This document shows positions 1 to 25,051 of a DNA stretch of 64,000 nt, piece after piece. The stretch is from Sympetrum striolatum. Its lineage: Eukaryota > Arthropoda > Insecta > Odonata > Libellulidae. Every line of letters starts with the position of its first letter. The first letter of the stretch is position 1. Both the position numbers and the translations under genes were made by a program. The stretch spans positions 186,001-250,000 of the forward strand of contig CANPUZ010000036.1 in the NCBI GenBank assembly GCA_947579665.1, given 5' to 3'. The notes under the pieces are model-generated. The model had not been told where the DNA came from. It did no database searches and saw only the letters and a program-made list of their open reading frames with translations.

Positions 1-40
1 TTGACGCTAGTGGTTTAGCCTGTGACTTTGTATCCTCTCT
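1..40 (-). repeat. Terminal 40 bp of a TTCGA-box unit cut by the window edge
   Basis: The window opens inside the 5' end (B1 class) of a unit lying on the minus strand. The GTATCC terminus at 31-36 and the preceding bases match the same part of complete units. The rest of the copy lies outside the window. Confidence 0.8.
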
Positions 41-98
41 ATATATCTATTATATATAGATGCTTCTCCGGATTCATTCATGTATCCATATATATATA
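41..98. repeat. Junction linker with CCGGA module
   Basis: Short A+T-rich spacer between two units. It carries one copy of the recurring linker module (TCTATTATATATAGATGC followed by TTCTCCGGATTCATTCAT), then a (TA) run. Confidence 0.8.
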
Positions 99-1177: not shown

Positions 1178-1193
1178 ATATATATATATGATA

Positions 1194-2271: not shown

Positions 2272-2294
2272 TATATAACTTATATATATATATA

Positions 2295-3374: not shown

Positions 3375-3470
3375 TATATATATATATGATATATGAATGA
3401 ATCCGGAGAAGCATCTATATATAATAGATATGAATGAATCCGGAGAAGCATCTATATATAATAGATATAT
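3375..3470. repeat. Junction linker with two CCGGA modules
   Basis: Spacer where two B ends face each other. It holds two direct copies of AATGAATCCGGAGAAGC followed by TCTATATATAATAGA, embedded in TA-rich sequence. Confidence 0.85.
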
Positions 3471-4552
3471 AGAGAGGATACAAACTCACAGCCTAAACCA
3501 CAAGAGTGATTGAGCTGAAATTTTTACGGAGTATTGGCCATAACGTGTAACCACCAGAAAAATTGCGATTAGGATCCTCAGTGTCATGGGTTCGATGCCA
3601 GGGGGCTCCAAAGTCCCGATTTTTCCCGTTTAAATGCATTGCTTTGATTTTCGGGAATTAAAAAAAAATACTTCCCGGATAGGTACAGAATCAAAACTCA
3701 AGGAGCCTTTATATATGGTCATGATCTATCGAAAACATAAATGAGTTTTACGGAAAATAACCTGGGTTCGAGGCTAGGTCGATGCAAATATCTGCCGTTT
3801 AAAAAGCATTGTGGCGATTTTTAAGATTTTTTTTGGACCCTTTCCCGATGGCATGGAAACTTGAAATTCGGTATGAGGTTAGACATCATAAATATATTTC
3901 ATAATCAATTTTTATGCTTTCCCTGATGTTCCTTGGTTCGATCCCAGAGGGCCATTTACATTCCTCAATGCATTTCTTATGGAGATAACGGATTAAAATT
4001 TTAGGTACTTCCCGGCATGATATCGATTTCAAACTTTGCACAAAATAAGATCAAGTCCTTTAAAATCATACTGTGCATTCATAGCGTAAATATATTTCCT
4101 GGGTTCGACACCAGGCGTCTCTTATATCAGTAGTTGATGCGATTTTTATTAATTATTTTGAGCCCTATCCCAATAATATAGAAACTTGAAATTCGGCAAA
4201 TAGATAGAGATCATAAATAACTTTCATGAACATTTTTTAGATTTCCAAGATCGTCCTTGGTTCGAATCCAGAGAGCCATTTACATTCCTGAAATGTAGAA
4301 CGTCGTTTGAGGCAGTTGTTGCAAATATTTGTGCTTGAATTTTCACACATAGTAAGAGATGGTGATTTTCTGTTGTGCTGCATAGTAAGCTTACCAGGAA
4401 GACCCGGGTTCAATGCCAGACGATTAAATTGCAGCGAATTTTAAGAATATTTTCAATACCTTTTTTTTTCTTTTGAGGGCCGTCCCGATATGATGCCGAC
4501 ATGAAATTATTGTTGTCGATCTGCTTGCAGTATGCAAGCTACATTTTACTCG
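3471..4552 (+). repeat. TTCGA-box unit 4 (type I, B1)
   Basis: Full 1,082-bp copy in the orientation opposite to units 1-3. The first monomer reads GGTTCGATGCCAGGGGG instead of GGTTCGATTCCAGAGGG, a variant also seen in units 40 and 41. The hairpin terminus is at 4523-4552. Confidence 0.85.
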
Positions 4553-4571
4553 TATATATATATATATGATA

Positions 4572-4736
4572 CGAGTAAAATGTAGCTTGCATACTGCAAG
4601 CAGATCGGCAATACTAATTTCATATCGGCATCATATCGGGACGGTCCTCAAAAGAAAAAAAAAGGATTGAATCCTTTTTTTTTCTTACAATTAGTATTGC
4701 CGATCTGCTTGCAGTATGCAAGCTACATTTTACTCG
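4572..4736. repeat. Miniature foldback made of two opposed 3' ends
   Basis: A 165-bp element that begins CGAGTAAAATG and ends CATTTTACTCG. Both halves are 3' termini of the unit, each with the GCTTGCA hairpin, facing outwards around the short palindrome GGATTGAATCC. The right arm lacks about 45 bp that the left arm keeps. No B-box monomer remains. Confidence 0.85.
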
Positions 4737-4802
4737 TATCTATTATATATAGATGCTTCTCCGGATTCATTCATATATATACCTATATAGATAGATAGAT
4801 AG
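4737..4802. repeat. Junction linker with CCGGA module and (GATA)n
   Basis: Contains the module in the TCTATTATATATAGATGC orientation, then CTATATAG and a (GATA)n run abutting the GGATAC start of the next unit. Confidence 0.8.
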
Positions 4803-5905
4803 ATAGGATACAAATTCACAGCCTAAACATCAAGCGTCATTGATCTGAAATTTTTATGACATATTGGCCATAACGTGAAACCCCCAGGAAAAAAGAGACT
4901 TTGATCCTCAGTGTCATAGGTTCGATTCCAGAGGGCCCCAAATTCCCGATTTTTCCCGTTTGAATGCATTGCCGTGATTTTTGGGAATTAAAAAAAAATA
5001 CTTTCCGGATAGGTAGAGAAGTAAAACTCAAGGTGCCTATATTTATGGTCTTGGACTTTCGAAAACATCAATGACTTTTACAAAAGTTATTCTGGGTTCG
5101 ATGCTAGGACGATGCAAAGATCTGCCCTTTAAAATACATGGGAGCCGTTTTTCATTATTTTTTTAGATGCACTTATCGAAATGATAGGATGTTCGTGCTT
5201 GGCTGGAAGATGTATGGTACAAATAAGTTTTAGAAAAAAATTTTCATAAGACCGTACTGTTCCTGGGTTCGAAGCCAGAGCACAATAACGTTTCTCTCAT
5301 AAGGAATATAAAGGAAAAGTAGGACGTCATTTGAGGCAGTTGTAACCAATATTTCTGCTTGAATTTGTATACGCGGTTAGAGATGGTGTTTTTCTGTTGT
5401 GCTGCATAGAAAGTATTGCCTGAAAGACCCGGGTTCGATGCCGGGCGGTAAAAATATCCCCCATATATAATACTATGGGGTATCTTTTCGTAATTTTTTT
5501 ATGCATTTATCGATATGTTAGGGAGCTCTTGCTTAGATGGAAGATGTATATTAACAGTTTGTTTAAGAAAAAAAATAGATAAGACCATGCATTTCCTGGG
5601 TTCGATGCCAGAGCACATTATAATTTCTCTAATAAGGAGTGTATGTGAATAGTAGGACGTCGTTTGAGGTAGTTGCACCTAATAGTTTTGCTTGAATTTT
5701 CACACATAGTTTGATATGGTAATCTTCTATTTTGCTGCATAGTAAGTACACCAGGAAGACCGGGGTTCGCTGCCAGGCGATTAAATTGCAGCGAATTCTA
5801 CGAATATTTTGAATTTTTTTTTCTTTTGATGTCCGTTCAGATATGATGCCGATATGAAATTAGTGTTGTTGATCTGCTTGCAGTATGCAAGTAACATTTT
5901 ACTCG
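4803..5905 (+). repeat. TTCGA-box unit 5 (type II, B1)
   Basis: 1,103-bp copy with the alternative core. After the first two monomers come three that differ from type I, with boxes GGTTCGAAGCCAGAGCAC, GGTTCGATGCCGGGCGG and GGTTCGATGCCAGAGCAC, and then the usual last monomer and hairpin. The fourth box forms the hairpin CCCGG-GTTCGATG-CCGGG. Sequence and flanking linker closely match units 11 and 32 in inverted orientation. Confidence 0.85.
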
Positions 5906-5971
5906 TAATAGATAGATGCTTCTCCGGATTCATTCATATATATAGCTATATAGCTATATAGGTATATAGAT
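5906..5971. repeat. Junction linker with module and CTATATAG repeats
   Basis: Module in the GATGCTTCTCCGGATTCATT orientation followed by several CTATATAG-like repeats up to the next GGATAC. Confidence 0.75.
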
Positions 5972-7060
5972 AGGATACAAATTCACAGGCTAAGCCACAA
6001 GCGTCATTGCCTTGAAATTTTTATGACATATTGGCCATAACGTGAAACCCCCAGGAAAAAAGCGACTTTGATCCTCAGTGTCATAGGTTCGATTCCAGAG
6101 TGCCCCAAAGTCCCGATTTTTCCCGTTTGAATGCATTGCCGTGATTTTCGGGAATTTTTAAAAAATACTTTCCGGATAGGTAGAGAAGTAAAACTCAAGG
6201 TGCCTATATTTATGGTCTAGGACTTTCGAAAACATTAATGACTTTCACAAAAATTATCATGGGATCGATGCTAGGACGATGCAAAGATCTGCCCTTTAAA
6301 ATACATGGGAGCCGTTTTTCATTATTTTTTTAGATGCGCTTATCGAAATGATAGGATGTTCGTGCTTTGCTGGAAGATGTATGGTACGAATAAGTTTTAG
6401 AAAAAAATTTTCATAAGACCGTACTATTCCTGGGTTCGAAGCCAGAGCACAATAACGTTTCTCTCATAAGGAATATAAAGGAAAAGTAGGACGTCATTTG
6501 AGGCAGTTGTAACCAATATTTCTGCTTGAATTTGCATACGCGGTTAGAGATGGTGTTTTTCTGTTGTGCTGCATAGAAAGTATTGCCTCAAAGCCCCGGG
6601 TTCGATGCCGGGTGGTAAAAATATCCCCCATATATAATACTATGATGTATCTTTTCATAATTTTTTTAAGCATTTATCGATATGTAAGGGAGCTCTTGCT
6701 TAGATGGAAGATGTATATTAACACTTTGTTTAAGAAAAAAAATAGATAAGACCATGCTGTTCCTGGGTTCGATGCCAGAGCACATTATAATTTCTCACAT
6801 AAGGAGTGTATGTGAAAAGTAGGACGTCGTTTGAGGTAGTTGCACCTAATAGTTTTGCTTGAATTTTCACACATAGTTAGAGATGTTGATCTTCTGTTTT
6901 GCTGCATAGTAAGTACACCAGGAAGACCGGGGTTCCCTGCCAGGCGATTAAATTGCAGCGAATTTTAAGAATATTTTCAATCCTTTTTTTCCTTTCCGGG
7001 ACCGTCCCGATATGATGCCGATATGAAATTAGTGTTGTCGATCTGCTGTTGTCGATCTGC
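5972..7060 (+). repeat. TTCGA-box unit 6 (type II, B1), 3' end lost
   Basis: Closely related to unit 5 but without its terminal hairpin. The sequence stops in TGTTGTCGATCTGC, which is duplicated once in tandem, and then passes straight into TTCTCCGG of the linker. The last box is mutated to GGTTCCCTGCC. Confidence 0.85.
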
Positions 7061-7091
7061 TTCTCCGGATATACCTATATATATATATATA

Positions 7092-8740
7092 CGAGTAAAA
7101 TGTTGCTTGCATACTGCAAGCAGATCGACAACACTAATTTCATATCGGCATTATATCGGGACGGTCCTCAAAAGAAAAAAAAGAAGGATTTAATTTTTTC
7201 TTAAAATTCGCTGGAATTTCATCGTCTGGCATCGAACCCGGGTCTTTTTGGTGAAATTTCTATGCAGCACATCAGAAGATTATCTTCTCTAAATACGTGT
7301 GAAAATTCAAGCAGAAATATTGGCTGCAACTGCCTCAAACGAAGACCTACTTTTCACGAATGTTAATAGCTCTCAGGATTCGAACCAAGGACGATCTAGG
7401 AAAAATAAAATATGTTTTCGAAGTGTATCTGTAAGTTCTATTTATATGCCGAATTTCAAGTTTTAATATTATTGGGAAGGGGTTCAAAATAATTCTTAAA
7501 AATCGGATCATTAACTGATTGTAGAGACGCCTGGTGTCGAAACCTGGACGTATTGGAAGCTGTGAATGCACAAAATGACTTGCTAGAACTTCATCTAATT
7601 TCATACGTAGTTTGAAGTGGATATCATACCGGGAAGTACCTAAAATGTGTTTCCGTTATCCCCATAAGAAATGCATTGTGGAGTGCGAATGGCCCTCTGG
7701 GATCGAACCAAGGACCATCAGCGAATATGTAAAATTTGATTATAAAATATATTTATGATTTCTAACCCCATGCCAAATTTCAAGTTTCCATGCATTCGGG
7801 AAGGGGTCCAAAAAAAATCTTAAAAATCGCCACAATGCATTTTAAACGGCCGATTTTTGCCCCGACCTAGCATCGAACCCAGGATATTCTCCGTAAAACT
7901 CGTTTATGTTTTAGGTAGATCATGTTCATATATATAGGCTCCTTGAGTTTTGATTCTCTACCTATCCGGGAAGTATTTTTTTTTAATTCCCGAAAATCAA
8001 AGCAATGCATTTAAACGGAAGAAATCGGGACTTTGGGGCCCTCTGGAATCGAACCCATGACACTGATGTTCAAAATCGCAATTTTTCTGGAGGTTATACG
8101 TTATTTCATATTCCCTTATGGTCCTTGGTTCGATCCCAGAGGGCCATTTACATTCCTCAATGCATTTCTTATGGAGATTACGGAAACACATTTTAGGTAC
8201 TTCCCGGCACGATAAAGACTTCAATCTTTGCACTAAGAAAGATTAAATGTACGAAAATCAAACTGTGCATTCTTAGCTGTCAATGTGTCCTGGGTTTGAC
8301 ACCAGGTGTCTCTGCAATCAGAAGTTAATCCGATTTTTTGGAATTATTTTGAAACCTTTGCCAATAATATAGAAACTTAAAATTCGGCATATAGATAGAG
8401 ATCATAAATAACTTTCAGAAACAATTTTTAGATTTCCAAGATCGTCCTTGGTTCGAATCCAGAGAGCCATTTAAATTCGTGAAAATTAGAACGTCTTTTG
8501 AGGCAGTTGTTGCCCATATTTCTGCTTGAATTTTCACACATAATTAGAGATGGCGATGTTCTATTGTGCTGCATCGTAAGTTTACAGTAAAGACCCGAGT
8601 TCGATGACAGACGATGGAATTTCAGCGAATTTTAAGAAAAATCCATTCCATTTTTTTCTTTTGATGGCCGTCCCGATATGATGCCGACATGAAAATAGTG
8701 TTGTCGATCTGCTTGCAGTATGCAAGCAACATTTTACTCG
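7092..8740. repeat. TTCGA-box unit 7, orientation-switched chimera
   Basis: Starts as a minus-strand type I copy (7092 to about 8105) that loses its last 60-70 bp including the B end. At about 8106 it switches without a spacer to a plus-strand copy, entering in the third monomer and ending with a normal hairpin terminus at 8740. Both outer ends are therefore 3' termini. The left part belongs to the same subfamily as units 39, 40 and 48. Confidence 0.85.
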
Positions 8741-8801
8741 TATGATATATGAATGAATCCGGAGAAGCATCTATATATAATAGATAGATAGATAGATAGA
8801 T
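8741..8801. repeat. Junction linker with module and (GATA)n
   Basis: Holds AATGAATCCGGAGAAGC, the TATATAATAGA tail and a (GATA)n run leading into GGATAC. Confidence 0.8.
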
Positions 8802-9877
8802 AGGATACTAATTCACAGCCTAAACCACAAGCGTGATTGACTTGAAATTTTTACGACGTATTGGCCATAACGTGTAACCACCAGAAAAAATGTGATTTTG
8901 AACCTCGGTGCCATGGGTTCGATTCCAGAAGGCCCCAAAGTCGCGATTTTCCCCATAAGAATACATGGCGGGGATTTTCCAAAATTTTTTTGAGGCCCTT
9001 TCCGGAAAAGGAGAGAATTGAAATTCGAGGGACCGCTAGAAGCCGTGCATATGCAACGAAAATCAAAAAGACATCTTCGAATTTTGTCCATGGTTCGATG
9101 CTAGGTCAGTGCAAAAATCGGCCGTTTAAAATGCATTGCGGCGATTTTTAAGATTTTTTTTGGATCCTTTCCCGATAACATGGATACTTGAAACTCGGCA
9201 CGTCGATAGATATCATGAATATATATCATAATCAAATTTTAGATGTTCGCTGATGGTCCTTGGTTCGATCCCAGAGGTCCATTTGCACTTCTCAATGCAT
9301 TTCTTACGGAGATAACGGAAACAAAATTAAGGTACTTCCCGGCATGCTATCGACATCAAACTTTGCATGATAGAAAAGCCAGTCGTTACAAATCAAACTT
9401 TGCATTCACAGCTTACAGTATCTCCTGGCTTCGACACCAAATGTCTCTGCATTCAGAAATTGATCCGATTTTTAGGAATTATTTTCAAACCTTTCCCAAC
9501 AATATAGAAACTTGAAATTTGGCATATAGATAGAGATCATAAATAACTTTTAGAAACATATTTTAGATTTCCAAGATCGTCCTTGGTTCGAATCCAGAGA
9601 GCCATTTACATTCGTGAAAATTAAAACGTCTTTTGAGGCAGTTGTAGCCAAATATTTCTGCTTGAATTTTCACACATAGTTAGAATCGGTGATCTTCTAT
9701 TGTGCTGCATAGTAAAATCACCAGAGAGACCCGGGTTCATAGCCAGACGATGAAATTTCAGCGAATTTGAAGAAATATTTCAATCCTTTTTTTTCTATTA
9801 AGGACCGACCCGATATGATGCCGATATAAAATTAGTGTTGTCGATCTGCTTGCAGTATGCAAGCTACATTTTACTCG
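8802..9877 (+). repeat. TTCGA-box unit 8 (type I, B1)
   Basis: 1,076-bp copy. Two boxes are damaged: the fourth reads GGCTTCGACACC and the sixth GGTTCATAGCC. It meets unit 9 tail to tail through only TATATATA, forming a short perfect palindrome ACTCGTATATATATACGAGT. Confidence 0.85.
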
Positions 9878-9887
9878 TATATATATA

Positions 9888-10985
9888 CGAGTAAAATGTA
9901 GCTTGCATACTGCAAGCAGATCGACAACAATAATTTAAAATCGGCATTTTATCAGGACGGTCCTCAAAAAAAAAAAAAAAATTGAAAATATTTTTAAAAT
10001 TCGCTGAAAATTTCATCGTTTGGCATCGAACCCGGGTCTTCCTGCATAACTTACTATTCTATGTTCTGTAGTACTTACAGTACTACAGAAGATCGCCATC
10101 TCTAACAATGTGTGAAAATTCAAGCAGAAATATTGGCTGCAACTGCCTCAAAAGACGTTCTAATTTCCACGAATGTAAATAGCTTTCTAGATTCGAACCA
10201 AGGACGATCTTGGAAATCTAAAACATGTTTCTTAAAATTGTTTATGATCTCTATCTATGTGCCGAATTTCAAGTTTCTATATTATTGGGAAATGTTTCAA
10301 AATAATTCCTAAAAATCGCATCTACTGCTAATTGCAGACACAACTGGTGTCGAACCCAGGACATATTGTAAACTGTGAATCTTCAATTTGATTTTTACTA
10401 ACTTGATCTTTTTTTATGCAAAGTTTGAAGTTGATAGCATGCCGGAAAGTACCGAAATTTTGTTTCCGTTGTCTCCATAAGAAATGCATTGAAAAGTGCC
10501 AATAGCTCTCTGGGATCGAACCAAGGACCATAAGCAAACATGTATCATATTATTATAAAATATATTCATGATATCTATCTACGTGCCGAGTTTCAAGTAT
10601 CCATGTTATTGGGAAAGGATCCAAAAAAAATCTTCAAATTCGCCGCAATGCATTTTAAACGGCCGATTTTTGCCTCGACCTAGCATCGAACCCAGGATAT
10701 TTTCCGCAAAACTCATTTATGTTTTTGATAGATCATGACCATATATAAAGGCTCCTAGATTTTCGACTCTCTACCTATCCCGGAAGTATTTTTTAAAAAT
10801 TCCCGAAAATCAAAGCAATGCATTTAAACGGGAAAAATCGGGACTTTGGGGCCCTCTGGAATCGAACCCATGACACTGAGGTGCAAAATCGCAATTTTTC
10901 TGGCGGTTACACTCTATGGCCAATATGTCGTATAAATATCAAGTCAATGACGCTTGTGGTTTGGCCTGTGAGTTTGTATCCTCTC
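9888..10985 (-). repeat. TTCGA-box unit 9 (type I, B1) with palindromic insertion
   Basis: 1,098 bp, about 20 bp longer than its class. The excess is a 23-nt palindrome at 10066-10088 (stem CTGTAGTACT / AGTACTACAG around TAC) that replaces the usual GCAGCACA of the last monomer. The other monomers are normal. Confidence 0.85.
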
Positions 10986-11064
10986 TATATATATATATGA
11001 ATATATATATGGATACATGAATGAATCCGGAGAAGCATCTATATATAATAGATATATATATATA
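10986..11064. repeat. Junction linker with CCGGA module
   Basis: TA-rich spacer with one module copy in the AATGAATCCGGAGAAGC orientation. Confidence 0.75.
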
Positions 11065-12143
11065 CGAGTGCAATGTAGCTTGCATACTGCAAGCAGATCG
11101 GCAATATTATTTTTATTTCGGCATTATATCGGGACGGTCCTCAAAAGAAAAAAAAAGATTTGAAAATATTCTTAAAATTCGCTTCAAATTTAGCGTCTGG
11201 CATCGAATCCGGGTCTTCCTGGTGAACTTACTAAGCGGCACAATAGAAGATCACTATATCTAACTATGTGTGAAAATTCAAGCAGAAATCTTTGCTACAA
11301 CTGCTTCAAACGACGTTCTACTTTTCACGAATGTAAATGGCTCTCTGGATTCGAACAAAGGACGATCGTGTGAATCTAGAACATGTTCCTGAAAAGTATC
11401 TATAATCTCTATCTGTATGCTGAATTTCAAGTTTCTATATATTTGGGAAATGGTTCCAAAAAATTCTTAAATATCGGATCATTTACTGATTGTAGAGACG
11501 CCTGGTGGTGAAACCAGAAAACATTGGTAGCTGTGAATTCACAGTTTGATTAGTAATGACTTGATCTTATCTTATGCAAAGTTTGAAGTCAATATCATAC
11601 CGGGAAGTACCTAAAATGTGTTTCCGTAATCTCCATAAGAAATGCATTGAGGAATGTAAATGGCCCTCTGGGATCGAACCAAGGACCATAAGGGAATATG
11701 AAAAATTTGATTATGAAATATAATTATGATATCTAACGCCATGCCGAATTTCAAGTTTCTATGCCATCGGAAAAGGGTCCAAAAAAAATCTTAAAAATCG
11801 CCACAATGCATTTTAAACGGCCGATTTTTGCCCCGACCTAGCATCGAACCAAGGATAATATTCGTAGATGTCTTTATGGTTTCCTTTAGATATGCATGGC
11901 ATCTAGCGGTCCCTCAAATTTCAACTCTCTCCTTTTCCGGCAAGTGCCTAAAAAAAATTTTCGAAAATCCCCGCCATGTAATCTTATGGGGAAAATCGCG
12001 ACTTTGGGGCCTTCTAGAATCGAACCCATGACACCGAGGTTCAAAGTAGGCTTTTTCCTGGAAGTTACACGTCATGGCCATAACGTCGTAAAAATTTCAA
12101 AGCAGTGGCACTTGTGGAACATGGTTAGAATTTTGATCCCCTA
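11065..12143 (-). repeat. TTCGA-box unit 10 (type I, B2), box d lost
   Basis: 1,079-bp copy whose 3' end reads CGAGTGCAATG, a variant shared with unit 20. The fourth box is replaced by CCTGGTGGTGAAACCAG (11501-11517): TTCGA is lost but a hairpin stem remains. Units 20, 23 and 28 share this change. Confidence 0.85.
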
Positions 12144-12216
12144 TGAATGTATATATATATCTATTATATATAGATGCTTCTCCGGATTCATTCATGTATC
12201 CATATATATATATATA
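12144..12216. repeat. Junction linker with CCGGA module
   Basis: TGAATGTATATA, a module copy, GTATCC and a (TA) run. Confidence 0.75.
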
Positions 12217-13320
12217 CGAGTAAAATGTTGCTTGCATACTGCAAGCAGATCGACAACACTAATTTCATATCGGCATCATATCGGGACGGACATCAAAAGA
12301 AAAAGAAAATTCAAAATATTCGTAGAATTCGCTGCAATTTAATCGCCTGGCAGCGAACCCCGGTCTTCCTGGTGTACTTACTATGCAGCAAAATAGAAGA
12401 TTACCATATCAAACTATGTGTGAAAATTCAAGCAAAACTATTAGGTGCAACTACCTCAAACGACGTCCTACTATTCACATGCACTCCTTATTTGAGAAAT
12501 TATAATGTGCTCTGGCATCGAACCCAGGAACAGCATGGTCTTATCTATTTTTTTTCTTAAACAAAGTGTTAATATACATCTTCCATCTAAGCAAGAGCTC
12601 CCTTACATATCGATAAATGCATAAAAAAATTATGAAAAGATACCCCATAGTATTATATATTGGGGATATATTTACCGCCCGGCATCGAACCCGGGTCTTT
12701 CAGGCAATACTTTCTATGCAGCACAAAAGAAAAACACCATCCCTAACCGCGTATGCAAATTCAAGCAGAAATATTGGTTACTACTGCCTCAAATGACGTC
12801 CTACTTTTCCTGTATATTCCTTATGAGAGAAACGTTATTGTGCTCTGGCTTCGAACCCAGGAACAGTACGGTCTTATGAAAATTTTTTTCTAAAACTTAT
12901 TTGTACCATACATCTTCCAGCCAAGCACGAACATCCTATCATTTCGATAAGTGCATCTAAAAAAATAATGAAAAACGGCTCCCATGTATTTTAAAGGGCA
13001 GATCTTTGCATCGTCCTAGCATCGAACCCAGGATATTTTTTGTAAAAGTCATTGATGTTTTCGAAAGTCCAAGACCATAAATATAGGCACCTTGAGTTTT
13101 ACTTCTCTACCTATCCAGAAAGTATTTTTTTTTAATTCCCGAAAATCAGGGCAATGCATTCAAACGGGAAAAATCGGGACTTTGGGGCCCTCTGGAATCG
13201 AACCTATGACACTGAGGATCAAAGTCTCTTTTTTCCTGGGGGTTTTACGTTATGGCCAATATGTCATAAAAATTTCAGATCAATGACGCTTGTAGTTTAG
13301 GCTGTGAATTTGTATCCTAT
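12217..13320 (-). repeat. TTCGA-box unit 11 (type II, B1)
   Basis: 1,104-bp copy with the alternative core. It is nearly identical to unit 32 (same orientation) and to unit 5 (inverted). The similarity continues into the linker downstream of the B end, so the linker was copied with the unit. Confidence 0.85.
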
Positions 13321-13388
13321 CTATCTATATAGGTATATATATGAATGAATCCGGAGAAGCATCTATATATAATAGATATATATATATA
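13321..13388. repeat. Junction linker with CCGGA module
   Basis: CTATCTATATAGG, then the module and a (TA) run. It is the same linker as after unit 32 (44952-45024) and, inverted, before unit 5. Confidence 0.8.
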
Positions 13389-14468
13389 GAGAGGATACAA
13401 ACTCACAGCCTAAACCACAAGAGTGATTGAGTTGAAATTTTTACGACATATTGGCCATAACGTGTAACCTCCAGAAAAATTGCGATTTTGAACCTCAGTG
13501 TCATGGGTTCGATTCCAGAGGGCCCCAAAGTCCCGATTTTTCCCGTTTAAATGCATTGCTTTGATTTTCGGGAATTTTTAAAAAATACTTCCCGGATAGG
13601 TAGAGAATCAAAACTCAAGGAGCCTATATATATGGCCATGATCTATCGAAAACATAAATGAGTTTTACGGAAAATATCCTGGGTTCGATGCTAGGTCGGG
13701 GCAAAAATCGGCCGTTTAAATTGCATTGTGTCGATTTTTAAGATTTTTTTTGGACCCTTTGCCGATGGCATGGAAACTTGAAATTCGGCATGGAGTTGGA
13801 GATCAATAATAAATTTCAGGATCAAATTTTACATATTCGCTGATGGTCGTTGGTTCGATCCCAGAGGACCTTTTAAATTCCTCAATGCATTTCTTACGGA
13901 GATAACGGAAACAAATTATAGGTACTTCCCGGCACGATAAAGACTTCAAACTTTGTATTATGAAAGATTAAGTGTATACAAATCAAACTGTGCATTCCCA
14001 GCTGTCAATGTGTCCTGGGTTCGACACCAGGCGTCTCTGCAATCAGTAACTGATCCGGTTTTCAATAATTATTTTGAACCCTTTCCCAACAATATAGAAA
14101 CTTAAAATTCGGAATGTAGATAGAGATCATAAATAACTTTCAGAAACATTTTTTACATTTCCATGATCGTCCTTGGTTCGAATCCAGAGAGCCATTTAAA
14201 TTCGTGAAAATTAGAACGTCTTTTGAGGCAGTTTTAGCCCATATTTCTTCTTGAATTTTCACACATAGTTAGAGATGGCGATTTTCTATTGTGCTGCATA
14301 GTAAGTTCGACAGTAAAGACCCGGGTTCGATGCCAGACGATGGAATTTCAGCGAATTTTAAGAAAAAATTTCAATCCATTTTTTTCTTTTGATGGCCGTC
14401 CCGATATGATGCCGACATGAAAATAGTGTTGTCGATCTGCTTGCAGTATGCAAGCAACATTTTACTCG
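13389..14468 (+). repeat. TTCGA-box unit 12 (type I, B1), reference copy
   Basis: Well-preserved 1,080-bp unit usable as the family reference. Motifs of the form GGTTCGANNCC start at 13506, 13682, 13852, 14018, 14175 and 14324, giving spacings of 176, 170, 166, 157 and 149 bp. Most monomers also share a poly-T tract, a CCCGG- or CCCAA-type element, the motif AACTTGAAATTCGGCAT and, downstream of the box, an ATTTAAATTC-like stretch. The six are therefore diverged copies of one ancestral monomer. The 3' end has the 7-bp hairpin GCTTGCA-GTA-TGCAAGC followed by AACATTTTACTCG. The form of the box matches the tRNA T-arm / RNA polymerase III B box. I see no complete tRNA cloverleaf, and no conserved long reading frame that could be a gene. 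Confidence 0.9.
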
Positions 14469-14513
14469 TATATATATAGGTATATCCGGAGAAGCGTCTA
14501 TATATAATAGATA

Positions 14514-15622
14514 TAGGGGATCAAAAGTTTTACCATGTTCCACAAGTGCCAAAGACTTGAAATTTTTTCGACGTATTGGCCATAACGTGTAACCTCCAGG
14601 AAAAAGCCGACATTGAACCTCGGTATCATGGGTTCGATTCCAGAAGGCCCCAAAGTCCCGATTTTCTCCATAAGGATACATGGTGGCGATTTTGAAAATT
14701 TTTTAAATAATACTTCCCGGACAGGTAGAGAATCGAAATTCAAGGAGCTTAGAGATATGGTCAATAACTATTATAAACATTAATGATTTCTAATGAGAAC
14801 GTCCTGGGTTCGACGCTAGGACGATGCAAAAATCCCGCATTTAAAATGCATGGGGATAGTTTTTCATTAATTTTTTTGATGCACTTACCGGAATGTAAGG
14901 AACTTTTCGCTCAGCTGGAAGATATATATTAAGAATTGGATTCAGAAAAAAATTTCTTAAGCCCGTACTATTCCTGGGTTCGATGCCAGAGCACATTAAC
15001 ATTTCTCTCTTAAGGAATATAAGGGAAAAGTAGGACGCCGTTTGAGGCAGTTGCAGCCAATATTTCTGCTCGAATTTTCACACATAATTAGAGATAGTGA
15101 TCTTCTATTATGTTGCATAGGAAGAATTACCAGAAAGATCCGGGTTCGACGCCGGGCGTTAAATATGTCTCCCGTTTAAAATACATAGGGTTAATATTTC
15201 ATTATTTTTTTGATGCACTTATCGAAATGATAGGAAGTTCGTACTCGGCTGGAAGATGTATGAAAAGAATTGGTTTTAGAAAAAAAATCAGATAACACCG
15301 TACTATTCCTGGGTTCGATACCAGAGCACATTAGCATTCTATCATAAGGAATATAAGGGAAACGTAGGACGTCGTTTGAGGCAGTTGCAGTTAATATTTC
15401 TACTTGAATTTTCACACATAGTTACAGATGGTGATCTTCTATGGTTCTGCATAGTAAGTATGACCGGGAAGACCTGGGTTCGATGCCAGACGAATAAATT
15501 GCAGCGGAAATTAAGAATATTTTCTAACCATTTTTTTTTCTTTTGAGGACTCACTCTATGTGATGCCGACAAAAAACTTTTGTTATCGATGTGCTTGCAG
15601 TATGCAAGCAACATTTTACTCG
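14514..15622 (+). repeat. TTCGA-box unit 13 (type II core, B2)
   Basis: 1,109-bp copy joining the alternative core to the GGGGATC 5' end. One monomer contains GCTCAGCTGGAAG (14909-14921), which resembles a tRNA D-arm / A box, 68 bp upstream of the box at 14977. The fourth box forms a perfect hairpin CCGGGTTCGACGCCGGGC-like stem. Confidence 0.85.
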
Positions 15623-15685
15623 TCTATTATATATAGATGCTTCTCCGGATTCACTCATGATGTACCCAGATACCCAGATACCCAG
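15623..15685. repeat. Junction linker with module and (CCCAGATA)n
   Basis: Module (TTCTCCGGATTCACTCATG) and then about three copies of an 8-bp CCCAGATA repeat leading directly into GGATAC. Confidence 0.8.
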
Positions 15686-16754
15686 ATAGGATACTAATTC
15701 ACAGCCTAAACTACTAGCGTCATTGATCTGAAATTTTTATGACATATTGGCCATAACGTGAAACCCCCAGGAAAAAGCCGACTTTGATCCTCAGTGTCAT
15801 GGGTTCGATTCCAGAGGGCCCCAAAGTCGCGATTTTCCCCATAAGACTACATGGCGGGGATTTTCGAAAATTTTTTTGAGGCACTTTCCGGAAAAGTAGA
15901 GAGTTGAAATTCAAGGGATCGCTAGAAGCCGTGCAAATCCAACGTAAATCAGAAAGATATCGCCGAATATGGTCCATGGTTCGATGCTAGGTCGGGGCAA
16001 AAATCGGCCGTTTAAAATGCATTGCGGATATTTTCAAAAATTTTTTTGGATCCTTTCCCGATAACATGGATACTTGAAACTCGGCACGTCGATAGATATC
16101 ATAAATATATTTCGTAATCAAATTTTACATGTTCGCTGATGGTCCTTGGTTCGATCCTAGAGGGGCATTTGCATTTCTCAATGCATTCCTTACGGAGATA
16201 ACGGAAACAAAATTAAGGTACTTCCCGGCATGCTATCGACTTCAAACTTTGCATGATACAAGAAAAAGTCTTTACAAATCAAACTTTGCATTCACAGCTT
16301 ACAATATGAACTGGGTTCGACACCAGGTGTCTCTGCAATCAGAAGTTGATCCGATTTTTAGGAATTATTTTTATACCTTTCCCAATAATATAGAAATTTG
16401 AAATTCGGCATATAGATAGAGATCATAAATAACTTTCAGAAATATCTTTTAGATTTCCAAGATCGTCCTTGGTTCGAATCCAGAGAGCCATTTACATTCG
16501 TGATAATTAGAACGTCTTTTGAGGCAGTTGTAGCCAATATTTCTGCTTGAATTTTCACACATGGTTAGAGATGATGATCTTCTATTGTGCTGCATAGTTA
16601 GTTCACCAGTAAGACCCGGGTTCGATGCCAGACGATGAAATTGTATCGAATTTTAAGAAAAATTTCAATCCTTATTTTTTTTCTTTTGAGGAGCGTACCG
16701 ATATGAAATTAGTATTGCCGATCTGCTTGCAGTATGCAAGCTACATTTTACTCG
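15686..16754 (+). repeat. TTCGA-box unit 14 (type I, B1)
   Basis: 1,069-bp copy with all six boxes. The third reads GGTTCGATCCTAGAGGG. It is slightly short because of small deletions near the 3' end. Confidence 0.85.
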
Positions 16755-16831
16755 TATATATATATATATATCTATTATATATAGATGCTTCTCCGGATTC
16801 ATTCATATATATTGCTATATAGCTATATAGA
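16755..16831. repeat. Junction linker with module and CTATATAG
   Basis: (TA)n, module in the TCTATTATATATAGATGC orientation, then CTATATAGCTATATAG before GGATAC. Confidence 0.75.
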
Positions 16832-17936
16832 TAGGATACAAATTCACAGGCTAAACCACGAGCGTCATTGACTTGAAATTTTTATGACATATTGGCCATA
16901 ACGTGAAACCCCCAGGAAAAAAGCGACTTTGATCCTCAGTGTCATAGGTTCGATTCCAGAGGGCCCCAAAGTCCCGATTTTTCCCGTTTAAATGCATTGC
17001 CGTGATTTTCGGGAATTTAAAAAAAATACTTTCCGGATAGGTAGAGAAGTAAAACTCAAGGAGCCTATATTTATGGTCTTGGACTTTTGAAAACATCAAT
17101 GACTTTCACAAAAAATATCCTGGGTTCGATGCTAGGACGATGCAAAGAACTGCCCTTTAAAATACATGGGAGCTGTTTTTCATTATTTTTTTTGATGCAC
17201 TTCTCGAAATAATAGGAAGTTCGTGCTAAGCCGGAAAGTGTAAGGTAACAATTGGTTTAAGAAAAAAATTTTCAGAAGACCGTACTATTCCTGGGTTCGG
17301 TGCCAGAGCACATTAACATTTCTCTCTTAAGGAATATAAGGGAAAAGTAAGACTTCGATTGAGGCAGTTGCAGCCTATATTTCTGCTTGAATTTTCGCAC
17401 ATAGTTAAAGAATAATATCTTCTATAATGTTGCATAGGAAGTTTCACCAGAAAGACCCGGGATCGATGCCGGGCGGTAAATATGTCTCCCGTTTAAAATA
17501 CATAGGGTTAGTATTTCATTATTTTTTTGATGCACTTATCGAAATGATAGGAAGTTCGTGCTTGGCCGGAAGATGTATGGTTAAAACAGGTTTAAGAAAA
17601 CAGTTTTCAGAAGACCGTAATATTCCTGGGTTCGATGCCAGACCACATTAACATTTCTCTCATAAGAAATATAAGGGAAAGGTAGGACGTCGTTTGATGC
17701 AGTTGCAGTTGATATTTCTGCTTGTATTTTCACAGATAGTTAGAGATGGTGATATTCTATTGTGCTCTATAGTAAGTATCACCAAGAAGACCCGAGTTCG
17801 ATGCCGGACGAATAAATTGCAGCGAATAATCAGAATATTTTCAATCCTATTTTTTTCTTTTGACGGCCTTCCCGATATGATGACATGAAATTAGTGTTGT
17901 CCATCTGCTTGCAGTATGCAAGCTACATTTTACTCG
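16832..17936 (+). repeat. TTCGA-box unit 15 (type II, B1)
   Basis: 1,105-bp copy. The third box is mutated to GGTTCGGTGCC, the fourth to GGGATCGATGCC and the sixth to GAGTTCGATGCC. It abuts unit 16 tail to tail through TATATATA. Confidence 0.85.
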
Positions 17937-17946
17937 TATATATATA

Positions 17947-19025
17947 CGAGTAAAATGTAGCTTGCATACTGCAAGCAGATCGACAACACTAATTTCATGT
18001 CGGCATCATATCGGGACGGCCCTCAAAGAAAAAAAAACGGATTGAAAATATTCTTAAAATTCGCTGCAAATTTCATCGTCTGGCATCGAACCCGTGTCTT
18101 ACTGGTGAACCTACTATGAAGCACAATAGAAGATCACCATCTCTAACTATGTGTGAAAATTGAAGCAGAAATATTGGCTACAACTGCCTCAATAGACGTT
18201 CTAATTTTCACGAATGTAAATGGCTGTCTGGATTCGAACCAAGGACGATCTTGAAAATGTAAAAGATGTTTCGGAATGTTATTTATGATTTCTACCCATA
18301 TGCCGAATTTCAAATTTCTATATTATTGGGAAAGGTTTCAAAATAATTCCTAAAAATCGGATCAACTTCTGATTGTAGAGACACCTGGTGTCGAACCCAG
18401 GACATATTGTAAGCTGTGAATTCACAGTTTGATTTGTAAAGAATTGTTCTTGTATCTTGCAAAGTTTGAAGTCGATAGCATGCCGGGAAGTACCATAATT
18501 TTGTTTCCGTTATCTCCGTAAGAAATGCATTGAGAAGTGCAAATGGCTCTCTGGGATCGAACCAAGGACCATCAGCGAACATGTAAAATTTGATTATGAT
18601 ATAATTTCATGATATCTATCCACGTGCCGAATTTCAAGTTTCCATGCCATTGGAAAAGGATCCAAAAAAAATCTTCAAAATCGCCGCAATACATTTTAAA
18701 CGGCCGATTTTTGCCCCAACGTAGCATCGAACCATGGACCATATTCGGCGATGTCTTTTTTATTTTCGTTGGATATGCTTGGCTTCTAGCGATCCCTGGA
18801 ATTTCAACTCTCTCCTTTTCCGGGAAGTGCCTCAAAAAAATTTTCGAAAATCCCTGCCATGTAATCTTATGGGGAAAATCGCGACTTTGGGGCCTTCTGG
18901 AATCGAACCCATGACACCGAGGTTCAAAGTCGGCTTTTTCCTGGAGGTTACACGTCATGGCCATAACGTCGTAAAAATTTCAAGTCAATGACGCTTTTGG
19001 TTTAGCCTGTGAATTTGTATCCTAT
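17947..19025 (-). repeat. TTCGA-box unit 16 (type I, B1)
   Basis: 1,079-bp copy. Its B end runs directly into a (TATCTGGG)n microsatellite. The region near the B end has a subfamily trait, GTTACACGTCATGGCC, also found in units 10, 26 and 30. Confidence 0.85.
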
Positions 19026-19232
19026 CTGGGTATCTGGGTATCTGGGTATCTGGGTATCTGGGTATCTGGGTATCTGGGTATCTGGGTATATATATGAATG
19101 AATCCGGAGAAGCATCTATATATAATAGATAGATGCTTCTCCGGATTCATTCATGTATCCATATATATCTATTATATATAGATGCTTCTCCGGATTCATT
19201 CATATATATAGCCATATAGCTATATAGCCATA
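19026..19232. repeat. Junction linker: (TATCTGGG)n plus modules in both orientations
   Basis: About eight tandem copies of the 8-mer TATCTGGG (to about 19088). They are followed by a module, an inverted module sharing its ATAGA hairpin, a further module and CTATATAG repeats. This is among the longest linkers, at 207 bp. Confidence 0.85.
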
Positions 19233-20308
19233 CGAGTAAAATGTAGCTTGCATACTGCAAGCAGATCGACAACACTATTATCATGTGGGCATCATATCGG
19301 GACGGCCATCAAAAGAAAAAAAAGGATTGAAATTTTTCTTAAAATTCGCTGAAATTCCATCGTCTGGCATCGAACCCGGGTCTTTACTGAGAACTTACTA
19401 TGCAGCACAATAGAACATCACCATTTCTAACTATGTGTGAAAATTCAAGCAGAAATATGGGCTACAACTGTCTCAAAAGACGTTCTAATTTTCACGAAAT
19501 TAAATGGCTCTCTGGATTCGAACCAAGGACGATCTTGGAAATCTAAAAAATGTTTCTGAAAGTTATTTATGATCTCTATCTATATGCCGAATTTGAAGTT
19601 TCTATATTATTGGCAAAGGTTTCAAAATAATTCCTAAAAATCGGATCAACTTCTGATTGCAGAGACACCTGGTGTCGAACCCATGACACAATGATAGCTG
19701 TGAAAGCAGTGTTTGAATTGTATGGACTTGATCTTTCTATATGCAAAGTTTGAAGTCGATATCGTCCCGGGAAGTACCTAAAATTTGTTTCCGTTATCTC
19801 TGTAAGAAATGCATTGAGGAATTTAATGTCCCTCTGGGATCGAACCAAGGACCATCAGCGAATATGTAAAATTCGATTATGATATATTTTTATGGTATCT
19901 AACCTCATACCGAATTTTAAGTTTCTATGCCATCGGAAAAGGGTCCAAAGAAAATCTTAAAAATCGCCACAATGCATTTTAAACGGCCGATTTTTGCCGT
20001 GACCTAGCATCGAACAAAGGATAATATTCGTAGATGTCTTTATGGTTTTCTTTAGATATGCACTGCATCTAGCGATCCCTTGAATTTCATCTCTCTCCTT
20101 TCCCGGGAAGTGCCTCAAAAAAATTTTCGAAAATCCCTGCCATGTATTCTTATGGAGAAAATCGCGACTTTGGGGCCTTCTGGAATCGAACCCATGACCC
20201 CGAGAATCAATGTCGGCTTTTTCCTGGAGGTTACACGTTATGGCCAATATGTCGTAAAAATTTCAAGTCAATGACGCTTGTGGTTTAGCCTGTGAATTTG
20301 TATCCTAT
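19233..20308 (-). repeat. TTCGA-box unit 17 (type I, B1)
   Basis: 1,076-bp copy with recognisable motifs at all six box positions. Its B end opens into an expansion of CTATATAG. Confidence 0.85.
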
Positions 20309-20402
20309 CTATATAGCTATATAGCTATATAGCTATATATATGAATGAATCCGGAGAAGCATCTATATATAATAGATAGCTATATAGCTATATAGCTATA
20401 TA
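20309..20402. repeat. Junction linker: (CTATATAG)n flanking a module
   Basis: CTATATAG repeats on both sides of one module, between two B ends. The arrangement is nearly palindromic. Confidence 0.8.
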
Positions 20403-21513
20403 GATAGGATACAAATTCACAGGCTAAACTACAAGCGGCATTGCCTTGAAATTTTTATGACGTATTGGCCATAACGTGAAACCCCCAGGAAAAAAGCGAC
20501 TTTGATCCTCAGTGTCATAGGTTCGATTCCAGAGGGCCCCAAAGTCCCGATTTTTCCCGTTTAAATGCATTGCCGTGATTTTCGGGAATTAAAAAAAAAT
20601 ACTTTCCGGATAGGTAGAGGAATAAAACTCAAGGTGCCTATATTCATGGTCTTGGACTTTCGAAAACATCAATGACTTTCACAAAAAATATCCTGGGTTC
20701 GATGCTAGGTCGATGCAAAGATCTGCCCTTTAAAATACATGGGAGCTGTTTTTCATTATTTTTTTTGATGCACTTCTCGAAATAATAGGAAGTTAGTGCT
20801 TAGCCGGAAAGTGTAAGGTAGGAATTGGTTTAAGAAAAAAAATTTCGTAAGACCGTACTATTCCTGGGTTCGATGCCAGAGCACATTAACATTTCTTTCA
20901 TAAGGAATGTAAGGGAAAAGTAAGACTTCGATTGAGGCAGTTGCAGCCAATATATCTGCTTGAATTTTCGCACATAGTTAAAGATTAATATCTTCTATAA
21001 TTTTGCATAGGAAGTTTTACCAGAAAGACCCGGGTTCGATGCCGGGCGGTAAATATGTCTCCCGTTTAAAATACATAGGGTTAGTATTTCATTATTTTTT
21101 TGATGCACTTATCAAAATGATAGGAAGTTCGTGCTTGGCTGGAAGATGTATGGTTATAACTGGTTTAAGAAAACAGATTTCAGAAGACCGAACTATTCCT
21201 GGGTTCGATGCCAGAGCACATCAACATTTCTCTCATAAGAAAAATAAGGGAAAAGTAGGACGTCGTTTGAGGCAGTTGCAGATAATATTTCTGCTTGAAT
21301 TTTCGCAGATAGTTAGAGATGGTGATCTTCTATTGTGCTGCATAGTAAGTATCACCAGGAAGACCCGGGTTCGATGCCGGACGAATACATTGCATCGAAT
21401 AATCAGAATATTTTCATTCCATTTTTTTTTCTTTTTACGGCCTTCCCGATATGATGCCGACACGAAATTAGTGTTGTCGATCTGCTTGCAGTATGCAAGC
21501 TACATTTTACTCG
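20403..21513 (+). repeat. TTCGA-box unit 18 (type II, B1)
   Basis: 1,111-bp copy, the longest regular unit. Loss of stop codons in one frame leaves a 207-codon open frame (21003-21626) crossing the unit boundary. I read it as accidental because it covers several non-coding monomers and the junction. Confidence 0.85.
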
Positions 21514-21579
21514 TATATATATATAGATGCTTCTCCGGATTCATTCATGTATCCATATATATATTCATATATATATATA

Positions 21580-22657
21580 GAGAGGATACAAACTCACAGG
21601 CCAAACCAAAAGCGTCAATGACTTGAAATTTTTACGACATATTGGCCATAGAATGTAACCGCCAGAAAAATTGCGATTTTGATTCTCAGTGTCATGGGTT
21701 CGATTCCAGAGGGCCCCAAAATCTCGATTTTTCCCGTTTAAATGCATTGCTTTGATTTTCGGGAATTTTTAAAAAATACTTCCGGGATAGGTAGAGAATC
21801 GAAAATCTAGGAACCTTTATATATGGTCATGATCTATCGAAAACATAAATGAGTTTTAAGGAAAATATCCTGGGTTCGATGCTAGGTCGAGGCAAAAATC
21901 GGCCGTTTAAAATGTATTGTGGCGATTTTTAAGATTTTTTTTGGACCCCTTCCCGATGGCATGGAAACTTGAAATTCGGCATGGAGTTGGAGATAATAAA
22001 TATGTTTCATAATCAAATTTTACATATTCGCTGATGGTCCTTGGTTCGATCCCAGGGCGCCATTTACATTTCTCAATGCATTTCTTATGGAGATAACGGA
22101 AACAAATTTTAGGTACTTCCCGGCATGCTATCGACTTAAAACTTAGCATGATAGAAGAACCAGTGTTAACAAATCAAACTAAGCATTCATAGCTATCAAT
22201 GTGTCCTGGGTTCGACACCAGGTGTCTCTGCAATCAGAAGTTGATCCGATTTTTAGGAATTATTTTGAAACCTTTCCCAATAATATAGAAACTTGAAATT
22301 TGGCATATGGATTGAGATCATTGATAAATTTCAGAAAGATTTTTTAAATTTCCAAGATCGTCCTTGGTTCGAGTCCCGAGAGCCATTTACATTCGTGAAC
22401 ATTAGAGCGTCTTTTGAGGTAGTTGTAGCCAATATTTCTGCTTGAATTTTCACACATAGTTAGAGATGGTGATCTTCTATTGTGCTACATAGTAAGTTCA
22501 CCAGTAAGATCCGGGTTCGATGCCAGACGATGAAATTTCAGCGAATTTATAAAAAAATTAAACCTTTTTTTTTTCTTATGAGGACCGTCCCGATGTGATG
22601 CCGATATGAAATTAGTATTGCCGATCTGCTTGCAGTATGCAAGCTACATTTTACTCG
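21580..22657 (+). repeat. TTCGA-box unit 19 (type I, B1)
   Basis: 1,078-bp copy meeting unit 20 tail to tail through TATATATA. The third monomer reads CCAGGGCGCC after its box, a change shared with unit 38. Confidence 0.85.
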
Positions 22658-22667
22658 TATATATATA

Positions 22668-23745
22668 CGAGTGCAATGTAGCCTGCATACTGCAAGCAGA
22701 TCGGCAATATTATTTTATTTCGGCATCATATCGAGACGGTCCTCAAAACAAAAAAAAAGGATTGAAAATATTCTTAAAATTCGCTTCAATTTTAGTGTCT
22801 TGCATCGAACCCGGGTCTTCCTGGTGAACTTACTAAGCGGCACAATAGATGATAACTATATCTAACTATGTGTGAAAATTCAAGCAGAAATATTTGCTAC
22901 AACTGCTTCAAACGACGTTCTACTTTTCACTAATACAAATGGCTCTCTGGATTCGAACCAAGGACGATCGTGGGAATCTAAAACATGTTCCTGAAATGTA
23001 TCAATAATCTCTATCCGTATGCTGAATTTCAAGTTTCTATATAATTGGGATATGGTTCCAAAAAATTCTGAAAAATCGGATCATTTACTGATTGTAGAGA
23101 CGCCTGGTGGTGAAACCAGGGAACATTGGTAGCTGTGAATTCACAGTTTGATTAGTAATGACTTGATCTTATCTTATGCAAAGTTTCAAGTGGATATAAT
23201 ATCGGGAAGCACCTAAAATGTGTTTCCGTAATCTCCATAAGAAATGCATTAAGGAATGTAAATGGCCCTTTGGGATCGAACCAACAACAATAAAGGAATA
23301 TGTAAAATTTGATTATGAAATATAATTATGATATCTAACGCCATGCCGAATTTCAAGTTTCTATGCCATCGGAAAAGGGTTCAAAAAAAATCATAAAAAT
23401 CGCCGCAATGCATTTTAAACGGCCGATTTTTGCCTCGACCTAGCATCGAACCAAGGATAATATTTGTAGATGTCTTTATGGTTTCCTTTTGATATGGGCG
23501 GCATCTAGCGATCCCTCGAGTTTCAACTCTCTCCTTTTCCGGGAAAAGCCTCAAATAAATTTTCGAAAATCCCCGCCATGTAATCTTATGGGGAAAATCG
23601 CGACTTTAGGGCCTTCTGGAATCGAACCCATGACACTCAGGTCCAAAATCACATTTTTTCTGGTGGTTACACGTTATGGCCAATACGTCGTAAAAATTTC
23701 AAGTCAATGACGCTTTTGGTTTAACCTGTGAATTTGTATCCTATC
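22668..23745 (-). repeat. TTCGA-box unit 20 (type I, B1), box d lost
   Basis: 1,078-bp copy with CGAGTGCAATG at the 3' end and the box-d replacement CCTGGTGGTGAAACCAGG at 23103-23120, both as in unit 10. Unit 10 carries a B2 end and this copy a B1 end, so 5' ends have been exchanged between close relatives. Confidence 0.85.
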
Positions 23746-23904
23746 TGGGTATATATATGAATGAATCCGGAGAAGCATCTATATATAATAGATATATATA
23801 TATATGGATACATGAATGAATCCGGAGAAGCATCTATATATAATAGATAGATATGAATGAATCCGGAGAAGCATCTATATATAATAGATATATATATATA
23901 TACA
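23746..23904. repeat. Junction linker with three CCGGA modules
   Basis: 159-bp spacer between two B ends with three module copies in the same orientation, separated by TA-rich sequence. Confidence 0.85.
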
Positions 23905-24981
23905 CTGGGGATCAAAAGTCTAAGCATGTTCCACAAGTGCCAACGACTTGAAATTTTTACGACGTATTGGCCATAACGTGTAACCTCCAGGAAAAAGCCG
24001 ACTTTGAACCTCGGTGTCATGGGTTCGATTCCAGAAGGCCCCAAAGTCGCGATTTTCCCCATAAGGATACATGGCGGGGATTTTCGAAAATTTTTTTGAG
24101 GCACTTCCCGGAGAAGCAGAGAGTTGAAACTTGAGGGATCGCTAGATGCCATGCATAGCCAACGAAAATCAAAAAGACATCTTCGAATATTGTCCTTGGT
24201 TCGATGCTAGGCCGGGGCAAAAATCGGCCGTTTAAAATGCATTGCGGCGATTTTGAAGATTTTTTTGGACCCCTTCCCGATGGCATAGAAACTTGAAATT
24301 CAACATGAGCTTAGATATCATAAATATATCTCATAATCAAATTTTACATATTTGCTTATGGTCCTTGGTTCGATCCCAGAGGGACATTTATATTCCTCAA
24401 AGCCTTTCTTACGGAGATAACGGAAACAAAATTTAGGTACTTCCCGTTATGCTATCGACTTCAAACTTTGCATGATACAAAAGCATGTCTTTACAAATGA
24501 AACTATGCATTCACAGCTTACAATATGTCCTGGGTTCGACACCAGGTGTCTCTGAAATCAGAAGTTGATCCGATTTTTAGTAATTATTTTGAAAGCTTTC
24601 CCAATAATATAGAAACTTGAAATTCGGCATATAGATAGAGTTCATAAATAACTTTCAGAAGCATGTTTAAGATTTCCAAGATTGTCCTTGGTTCGAATCC
24701 AGAGAGCCATTTACATTCGTGAAAAATAGAACGTCTTTTGAGGCAGTTGCAGGCAATATTTCTGCTTGAATTCACGCACATAGTTAGAGATGGTGATGTT
24801 CTTTTGTGCTGCATAATAAGTTCACAGTAAAGACCCGGGTTCGATGCCAGACGATGGAATTTTAGCGAATTTTAAGAAAAATTTTTATCCATTTTTTTTC
24901 TTTTGAGGACCGTCCCGATATGATGCCGATATGAAATTAGTATTGCCGATCTGCTTGCAGTATGCAAGCTACATTTTACTC

Positions 24982-24982
<1 letters not shown>
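23905..24982 (+). repeat. TTCGA-box unit 21 (type I, B2), last unit before the island
   Basis: 1,078-bp copy starting CTGGGGATC, a B2 variant shared with units 24, 25, 27, 33 and 35. It ends the left array block. Confidence 0.85.

Positions 24983-25051
<69 letters not shown>
24983..25051. repeat. (TA)n microsatellite at the array/island border
   Basis: About 69 bp of pure TA between the hairpin end of unit 21 and the start of non-array sequence. Confidence 0.95.

Follow-up and report, generated by a model that had tools for sequence, protein, structure and literature searches.

A six-monomer repeat clustered in the genome of Sympetrum striolatum carries a B-box-type motif conserved beyond its surroundings

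A stretch of 64,000 nucleotides from a single contig of Sympetrum striolatum was analyzed and is referred to below as the window. It contains 48 units of a repeat of about 1.1 kb, of which 25 lie on the forward strand and 23 on the reverse strand. This count was reached after four split pairs had been merged (three without the fourth motif and one taken as an internal deletion), and it agrees with the 48 copies of the original prediction. The units are arranged in three cluster blocks, and their orientations form 20 runs where 25.0 (sd 3.4) would be expected if they were random, so that a head-to-tail satellite or higher-order repeat was ruled out by the mixture of orientations. The features of the cluster and of one example unit from each of two subfamilies are as follows.

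1..25051, no single strand: first cluster block, close-packed units in both orientations
34951..60366, no single strand: second cluster block
36322..48980, no single strand: large inverted duplication of units (36322-40789 versus 48980-44591)
61974..64000, forward strand: third cluster block, consisting of two units, of which the second is truncated at the end of the window
13393..14470, forward strand: example unit of subfamily I ("unit 12"), 1078 bp, 5' GGATAC and 3' ACTCGTA, ends common to other units
13506..13516, forward strand: B-box 1, monomer class A, exact GGTTCGANNCC, with the first T of TTCGA 115 bp from the 5' end
13682..13692, forward strand: B-box 2, class B, reads GGTTCGATGCT, ending in CT where the 11-mer has CC
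13852..13862, forward strand: B-box 3, class D, exact GGTTCGANNCC
14018..14028, forward strand: B-box 4, class F, exact GGTTCGANNCC
14175..14185, forward strand: B-box 5, class E, exact GGTTCGANNCC
14324..14334, forward strand: B-box 6, class C/M, exact GGTTCGANNCC, the least conserved of the six in both subfamilies
14439..14455, forward strand: 3' hairpin GCTTGCA-GTA-TGCAAGC, 15 bp from the unit end and within the most conserved stretch of subfamily I
14471..14517, forward strand: spacer, a TA tract with the mini-element ATCCGGAGAAGCRTCTATATATAATAGAT
20407..21515, forward strand: example unit of subfamily II (A-B-K-M-K-M), 1109 bp

Full-length units measure 1068-1096 bp in subfamily I (30 units) and 1102-1109 bp in subfamily II (nine units), with mean pairwise identities of 0.844 within the former (26 units) and 0.850 within the latter (nine units). 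Monomers of subfamily I follow the class order A-B-D-F-E-C (or -M) at spacings of 176, 170, 166, 157 and 148, and all five spacings are kept within 1 bp in 25 of 28 units. The order in subfamily II is A-B-K-M-K-C (or -M), at spacings of 176, 170-171, 166, 162-169 and 163-166 (10 units); both subfamilies have their first two monomer classes and their 3' end in common. The monomers are homologous at least in part, as exemplified by positions 340-493 and 664-816 of the subfamily I consensus, which are 79.9% identical. The single hexameric layout proposed beforehand holds insofar as units consist of six diverged monomers, but there are two subfamilies rather than one, and units outside these two layouts are partial, deleted or recombined. 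Among them are recombined units with the orders A-B-D-B-D-F (48448-49419) and A-B-K-C (43029-43799), and a stretch at 49518-50056 that looks like an A-to-C deletion of a unit. The example unit of subfamily I had been placed at 13389-14468 and is shifted by a few bases when delimited by its ends. No coding frame belonging to the repeat unit was seen, and a protein search found no relatives of a frame read from the repeat.

Both ends of the units are fixed. The 5' end reads GGATAC or GGATC and lies 115 bp before the first motif in all 44 units measured, while the 3' end reads CATTTTACTCGTA and lies 135-146 bp past the last motif (44 units). Since only four tetramers precede the 5' end in these 44 units (GATA in 16, GAGA in 13, TAGG in 10 and CTGG in 5), the 5' boundary may sit a few bases further out. 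TATA directly follows the 3' end in 30 of the 44. Between units lie short tracts of TA or other microsatellite sequence, which often carry the 29-bp mini-element ATCCGGAGAAGCRTCTATATATAATAGAT; there are 33 exact copies of the latter (e.g., 3401-3429, 13349-13377 and 14484-14512) in either orientation relative to the units, and it may be the end of another element. Half of the six 3'-to-3' junctions found by exact pattern have just TATATA between the ends, namely those at 9873, 17932 and 22653, where exactly these six bases separate two ACTCGTA ends. The arms of the inverted duplication are about 4.5 kb long and 94.3% identical over 4473 aligned columns, around a center of about 3.8 kb. The cluster probably owes its shape both to insertion into microsatellite tracts and to subsequent segmental duplication.

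Intact units carry six B-box-type motifs, GTTCGANNC, one per monomer. At the six positions originally named in the subfamily I example this motif is present throughout, whereas the full 11-mer GGTTCGANNCC is present at five of them, the exception being 13682; no class B site in the window (0 of 45) has the full 11-mer. Exact copies of GGTTCGANNCC in the window number 185 versus 0.18 expected, a count reached by none of 100 shuffles. A looser scan with a 17-base consensus, allowing up to 5 mismatches, gave 407 matches versus 3-9 in five Markov controls. Eight monomer classes account for 267 of these matches (236 with GTTCGANNC and 184 with GGTTCGANNCC). The other 140 were dropped, comprising 130 opposite-strand echoes at a distance of exactly 5 bp from a class site, which arise because the motif is an imperfect palindrome, 7 matches near class A that represent a weak reverse-strand site 16 bp away, and 3 singles. 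The B-box form GTTCRANNC occurs 241 times in the repeat part of the window and 3 times in its 11.5 kb of non-repeat DNA, where 2.6 are expected, that is, at chance level. Chance was rejected as the source of the motif's abundance on the basis of the exact counts, the looser scan against its controls and this chance-level frequency in non-repeat DNA. Seven of the eight class consensuses (K being the exception) also have a further box in common, TTGAAATT or similar, which lies some 75 bp upstream of the motif. In addition, a lone degenerate monomer piece with one B-box motif lies inside a non-repeat stretch (26275-26329, reverse strand) and is 72.7% identical to subfamily II over 55 bp (E 7.5e-6).

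Two comparisons were used to ask how well the motif is kept relative to its surroundings. Between monomer types, an ungapped alignment of the eight class consensuses showed all seven core positions of GTTCGANNC to be identical in 8/8, against a mean of 0.505 over the 137 columns outside the core, a comparison that leans toward the motif because the classes rest on sites found through it. The motif matches the invariants of the B-box/T-loop and varies at N59 and N60 (0.75 and 0.50 across class consensuses), the two positions that are free in B-boxes. Between copies, 39 full-length units were picked by their ends alone, trees were built without the motif, parsimony changes were counted, and expectations were drawn 20,000 times each from window-matched and composition-matched columns. 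With one tree per set, although units are related by recombination and segmental duplication, the core of subfamily I (30 units, 42 core columns) had 24 changes versus 77.3 (sd 16.6) for window-matched columns (P=5e-5) and 83.0 (sd 13.3) for composition-matched columns (0 of 20,000 draws as low). In subfamily II (nine units) there were 4 core changes versus 18.0 (sd 4.8; P=4.5e-4) and 18.7 (sd 4.2; P=5e-5), respectively. Exact GTTCGANNC was found at 159/180 sites of the end-picked units in subfamily I and at 48/54 in subfamily II. An earlier version of the test used 35 units built from motif matches, so that units with a lost motif were left out; core changes in subfamily I went from 19 in its 26 motif-assembled units to 24 in the 30 end-picked ones, and the result was kept.

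CpG dinucleotides are not depleted in the window (observed/expected 1.07). In the 35 motif-assembled units, the CpG of the motif changed on average 1.5 times versus 3.28 for other CpGs in subfamily I, and 0 versus 1.3 times in subfamily II; 9 of 36 and 12 of 33 other CpGs, respectively, changed no more than the motif mean. Conservation is uneven among sites. The sixth B-box is weakly kept (exact in 22/30 units of subfamily I and 6/9 of subfamily II), and at site 4 TTCGA was lost in three units by a common change while the flanking arms CTGG...CCAGG were kept. Stretches around consensus positions 135-150, 310, 700 and 850 are as conserved as the motif, and the 3' hairpin more so. The TTCGA match might have proved no better conserved than the rest of the monomer, an outcome that the original prediction had itself named as refuting; it is better kept both between monomer types and between copies. 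This suggests that the motif is of some use to the repeat; as far as sequence conservation goes, the B-box reading is supported. Selection would be the cause of this conservation.

A more conventional reading of a B-box would be that the repeat is a multimeric tRNA-derived SINE or an array of Pol III genes, whose monomers are decayed tRNA-like promoters that are or once were transcribed. The tRNA T-arm/B-box form of the motif agrees with this, and so does class A, which has a conserved, weak A-box-like stretch, TGGCCATAACG, about 55 bp upstream of the motif, with 2.33 mean mismatches to the strict A-box versus 3.94 after shuffling in subfamily II, and 3.00 versus 3.82 in subfamily I. However, tRNA genes and known RNAs were ruled out for the window: a tRNA-model scan, which had been put forward for the B-box monomers, returned 0 tRNA genes (ARAGORN), no Rfam family reached the gathering (curated) threshold, and no tRNA was among the 5 Rfam matches up to E 10 (two units, 2.2 kb). 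Furthermore, in the region 18-100 bp before the motif, scanned in those 186 of the 210 monomers of the 35 motif-assembled units that have GTTCGANNC, the loose A-box consensus was exact in 0/186 cases versus 5.8 expected from shuffles. With no tRNA gene, Rfam family or exact A-box, the monomers do not look like Pol III genes, and we regard this explanation as highly improbable. What stands of the Pol III B-box/T-arm reading is the form of the motif, the freedom of N59-N60 and the extra conservation; A-box, tRNA and Rfam evidence did not bear it out. tRNA-derived SINEs share with this repeat a B-box within a repeated sequence, and the repeat differs from them in that no consensus A-box or tRNA body was found, there are six sites, and no poly-A or LINE-like tail was shown. 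Plain inheritance would hold that the monomers descend from one ancestor and that the motif is a remnant conserved by chance or homogenized by conversion. The homology of the monomers fits, and chimeric and deleted units reveal recombination, but the motif is retained beyond matched columns in both subfamilies and is complete across class consensuses whose flanks are only about half identical, which leaves this the least credible of the explanations considered. The chief rival to a TFIIIC platform is a dyad-binding protein. Here the conserved thing would be an imperfect dyad of 17-18 bp (CCTGG..TCGA..CCAGG), recognized by a dimeric protein or the element's own Rep or transposase, or forming a hairpin, and its likeness to a B-box would be incidental. 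The reverse-strand echoes, which come mainly from five of the eight classes, speak for such a dyad. In the register with an 8-nt loop, each of the five positions of class F is paired in 84-100% of copies, and in class K four of the five pair; a change on both sides has preserved one pair in class M (C-G in 13/19, where others have T-A), and the three site-4 copies without TTCGA retain both arms. Yet the core changes less than the arms (0.57 versus 0.85 per column in subfamily I, 0.10 versus 0.19 in subfamily II), GTTCGANNC is identical in every class consensus, class A pairs at three of five positions in either register, and in class C the pair that covaries is broken (C-A in 30/36). The register also differs, since D and E pair better with a 7-nt loop and F, K and M with an 8-nt loop; a single T-arm hairpin as the conserved thing was rejected because classes use different pairing registers. 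On balance we consider the dyad rather unlikely.

Another explanation concerns the element rather than the motif, and would make the repeat a non-autonomous Helentron-type element (HINE, like pearl and Cg_HINE), with the B-box a mere conserved motif of satellite-like central repeats that has no TFIIIC role. HINEs are described as having up to six central repeats of about 160 bp (pearl), a microsatellite and a palindrome close to the 3' end. Their subterminal inverted repeats of 11-15 bp lie close to the 5' end and some tens of bp before the 3' end, and they insert into TT or T-rich DNA without target duplication (PMC7492417, PMC4067079). The build of our repeat is closest to that of the bivalve pearl/Cg_HINE elements, which are likewise short and dispersed, with central repeats of about 160 bp (up to six in pearl), a 3' palindrome and a microsatellite (PMC7492417), and the palindrome near the 3' end is present here as the hairpin listed above. 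On the other hand, subterminal inverted repeats were not found in the first and last 130 bp of either subfamily consensus, where the best matches were the low-complexity TTGAAATTTTT at 40 and 980 of 1076 in subfamily I and 7 bp in subfamily II, and for this reason the unit was not filed as a HINE. The 3' end is followed in most units by TA rather than TT, the usual TATA not being a T run, and no Rep or helicase was noticed in the one window (Pfam on six frames). The repeat further differs from pearl/Cg_HINE in its six old, individually diverged monomers in one register, with a B-box in each. Canonical Helitrons, which begin with TC and end with CTRR, with a palindrome about 11 bp from the 3' end (PMC4067079), were rejected as a match: the unit ends (5' GGATAC/GGATC, 3' CTCGTA) do not fit, and the palindrome alone does. 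A HINE of which the B-box is an idle part appears improbable.

The reading that we tentatively favor, as possible rather than probable, is that of a non-autonomous mobile-like element of about 1.08 kb that serves as a six-site, A-box-less platform of TFIIIC type, akin to 'extra TFIIIC' (ETC) sites, with the motif kept by selection. It was reached because the exact B-box form is kept six times per unit, at nucleosome-like spacing and without a consensus A-box. Mobility is inferred from the fixed ends, the near-random orientation and the position between microsatellite tracts, while TFIIIC would be the protein that binds the motif, with a presumed effect on chromatin. The element body would consist of six tandem, mutually diverged monomers of nucleosome length, each offering a single motif of B-box type (about CCYKGGTTCGANNCCAG) and lacking a consensus A-box, so that a unit may act as a six-site, ETC-like TFIIIC platform without Pol III. 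Such a platform could keep the chromatin of the element accessible or insulated, which in turn would help copies to survive and spread, and the selection that keeps the motif may act on the propagation of the element or on the cluster. Retention of GTTCRANNC beyond its surroundings, expected of an ETC site, is what was found. If correct, this would give mobile DNA a natural means of scattering insulator-like or condensin-loading sites through a genome, six at a time, in a dispersed repeat whose multiply kept part is neither a gene nor a whole promoter but a TFIIIC-type site. It would also provide a clean system for asking why solo B-boxes persist, and whether TFIIIC serves as an address for transposons that are not themselves Pol III genes. 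An extension by analogy, decidedly improbable in our view, is that the six TFIIIC sites form a landing pad that draws further copies to microsatellite tracts just outside existing units. The insertion machinery would then be the element's own or a partner's, and copies would pile up in clusters like this one, sparing genes. As a precedent, TRE5-A targets B-box DNA in Dictyostelium, with isolated B-boxes hit at <1% of the tRNA-gene frequency (PMC5391098).

Several B-box systems without tRNA genes offer points of comparison. The IR-L/IR-R boundaries of S. pombe hold five B-boxes within a 327-bp stretch and resemble the repeat as short elements with several B-boxes and no tRNA genes, but they bound one locus and form no repeat family, and their TFIIIC role is experimental, whereas here it is inferred (PMC4502379). 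Drosophila ETC loci, 348 of which have the B-box motif and at which cohesin and condensin are present, are likewise TFIIIC sites without tRNA genes; the B-box occurs there in a subset, and they are known from ChIP and not described there as a repeat unit (PMC4226948). The extrachromosomal rDNA palindrome of Dictyostelium carries 22 B-boxes per arm of about 44 kb, an over-representation of GTTCRANNC outside any tRNA context that was partly spread by segment duplication. Some of these B-boxes attract the retrotransposon TRE5-A; the targeted loci possess A-boxes and, in the view of the authors, do not count as ETC sites. The palindrome differs from the window in its lower number (22 per arm versus 241), in some A-boxes and in not being a dispersed element (PMC5391098).

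Searches for relatives were also carried out. Four unit-derived patterns and one taken from the spacer mini-element had no match in prokaryotic and viral contig collections, and one unit had no match among plasmids and phages; for animals, these results say little. A generic pattern of three B-boxes spaced by about 160 bp matched at least 120 viral stretches; ARAGORN detected 12-28 tRNA genes in each of 8 among the 80 listed, a set picked largely for its multiple matches, and the pattern matches in these 8 overlap the runs of tRNA genes. Taken by itself, then, the three-B-box pattern lacks specificity. Many repeat families are described solely in Repbase or Dfam. No hexameric B-box repeat was named among the literature matches listed, and pearl is a published near-match in build to the six-monomer repeat. 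Finally, an open frame at 33996-35084 (reverse strand) combines a unit's first monomer with an internal reverse transcriptase fragment (Pfam RVT_1, E 1.7e-16). The best relative of this reverse transcriptase among the matches listed is a partial protein (77%) on an 812-bp contig labeled Staphylococcus aureus, which is probably animal DNA in that assembly. Among the 120 matches listed out of 124, named relatives come mostly from invertebrates, together with one killifish and a few contigs labeled bacterial.
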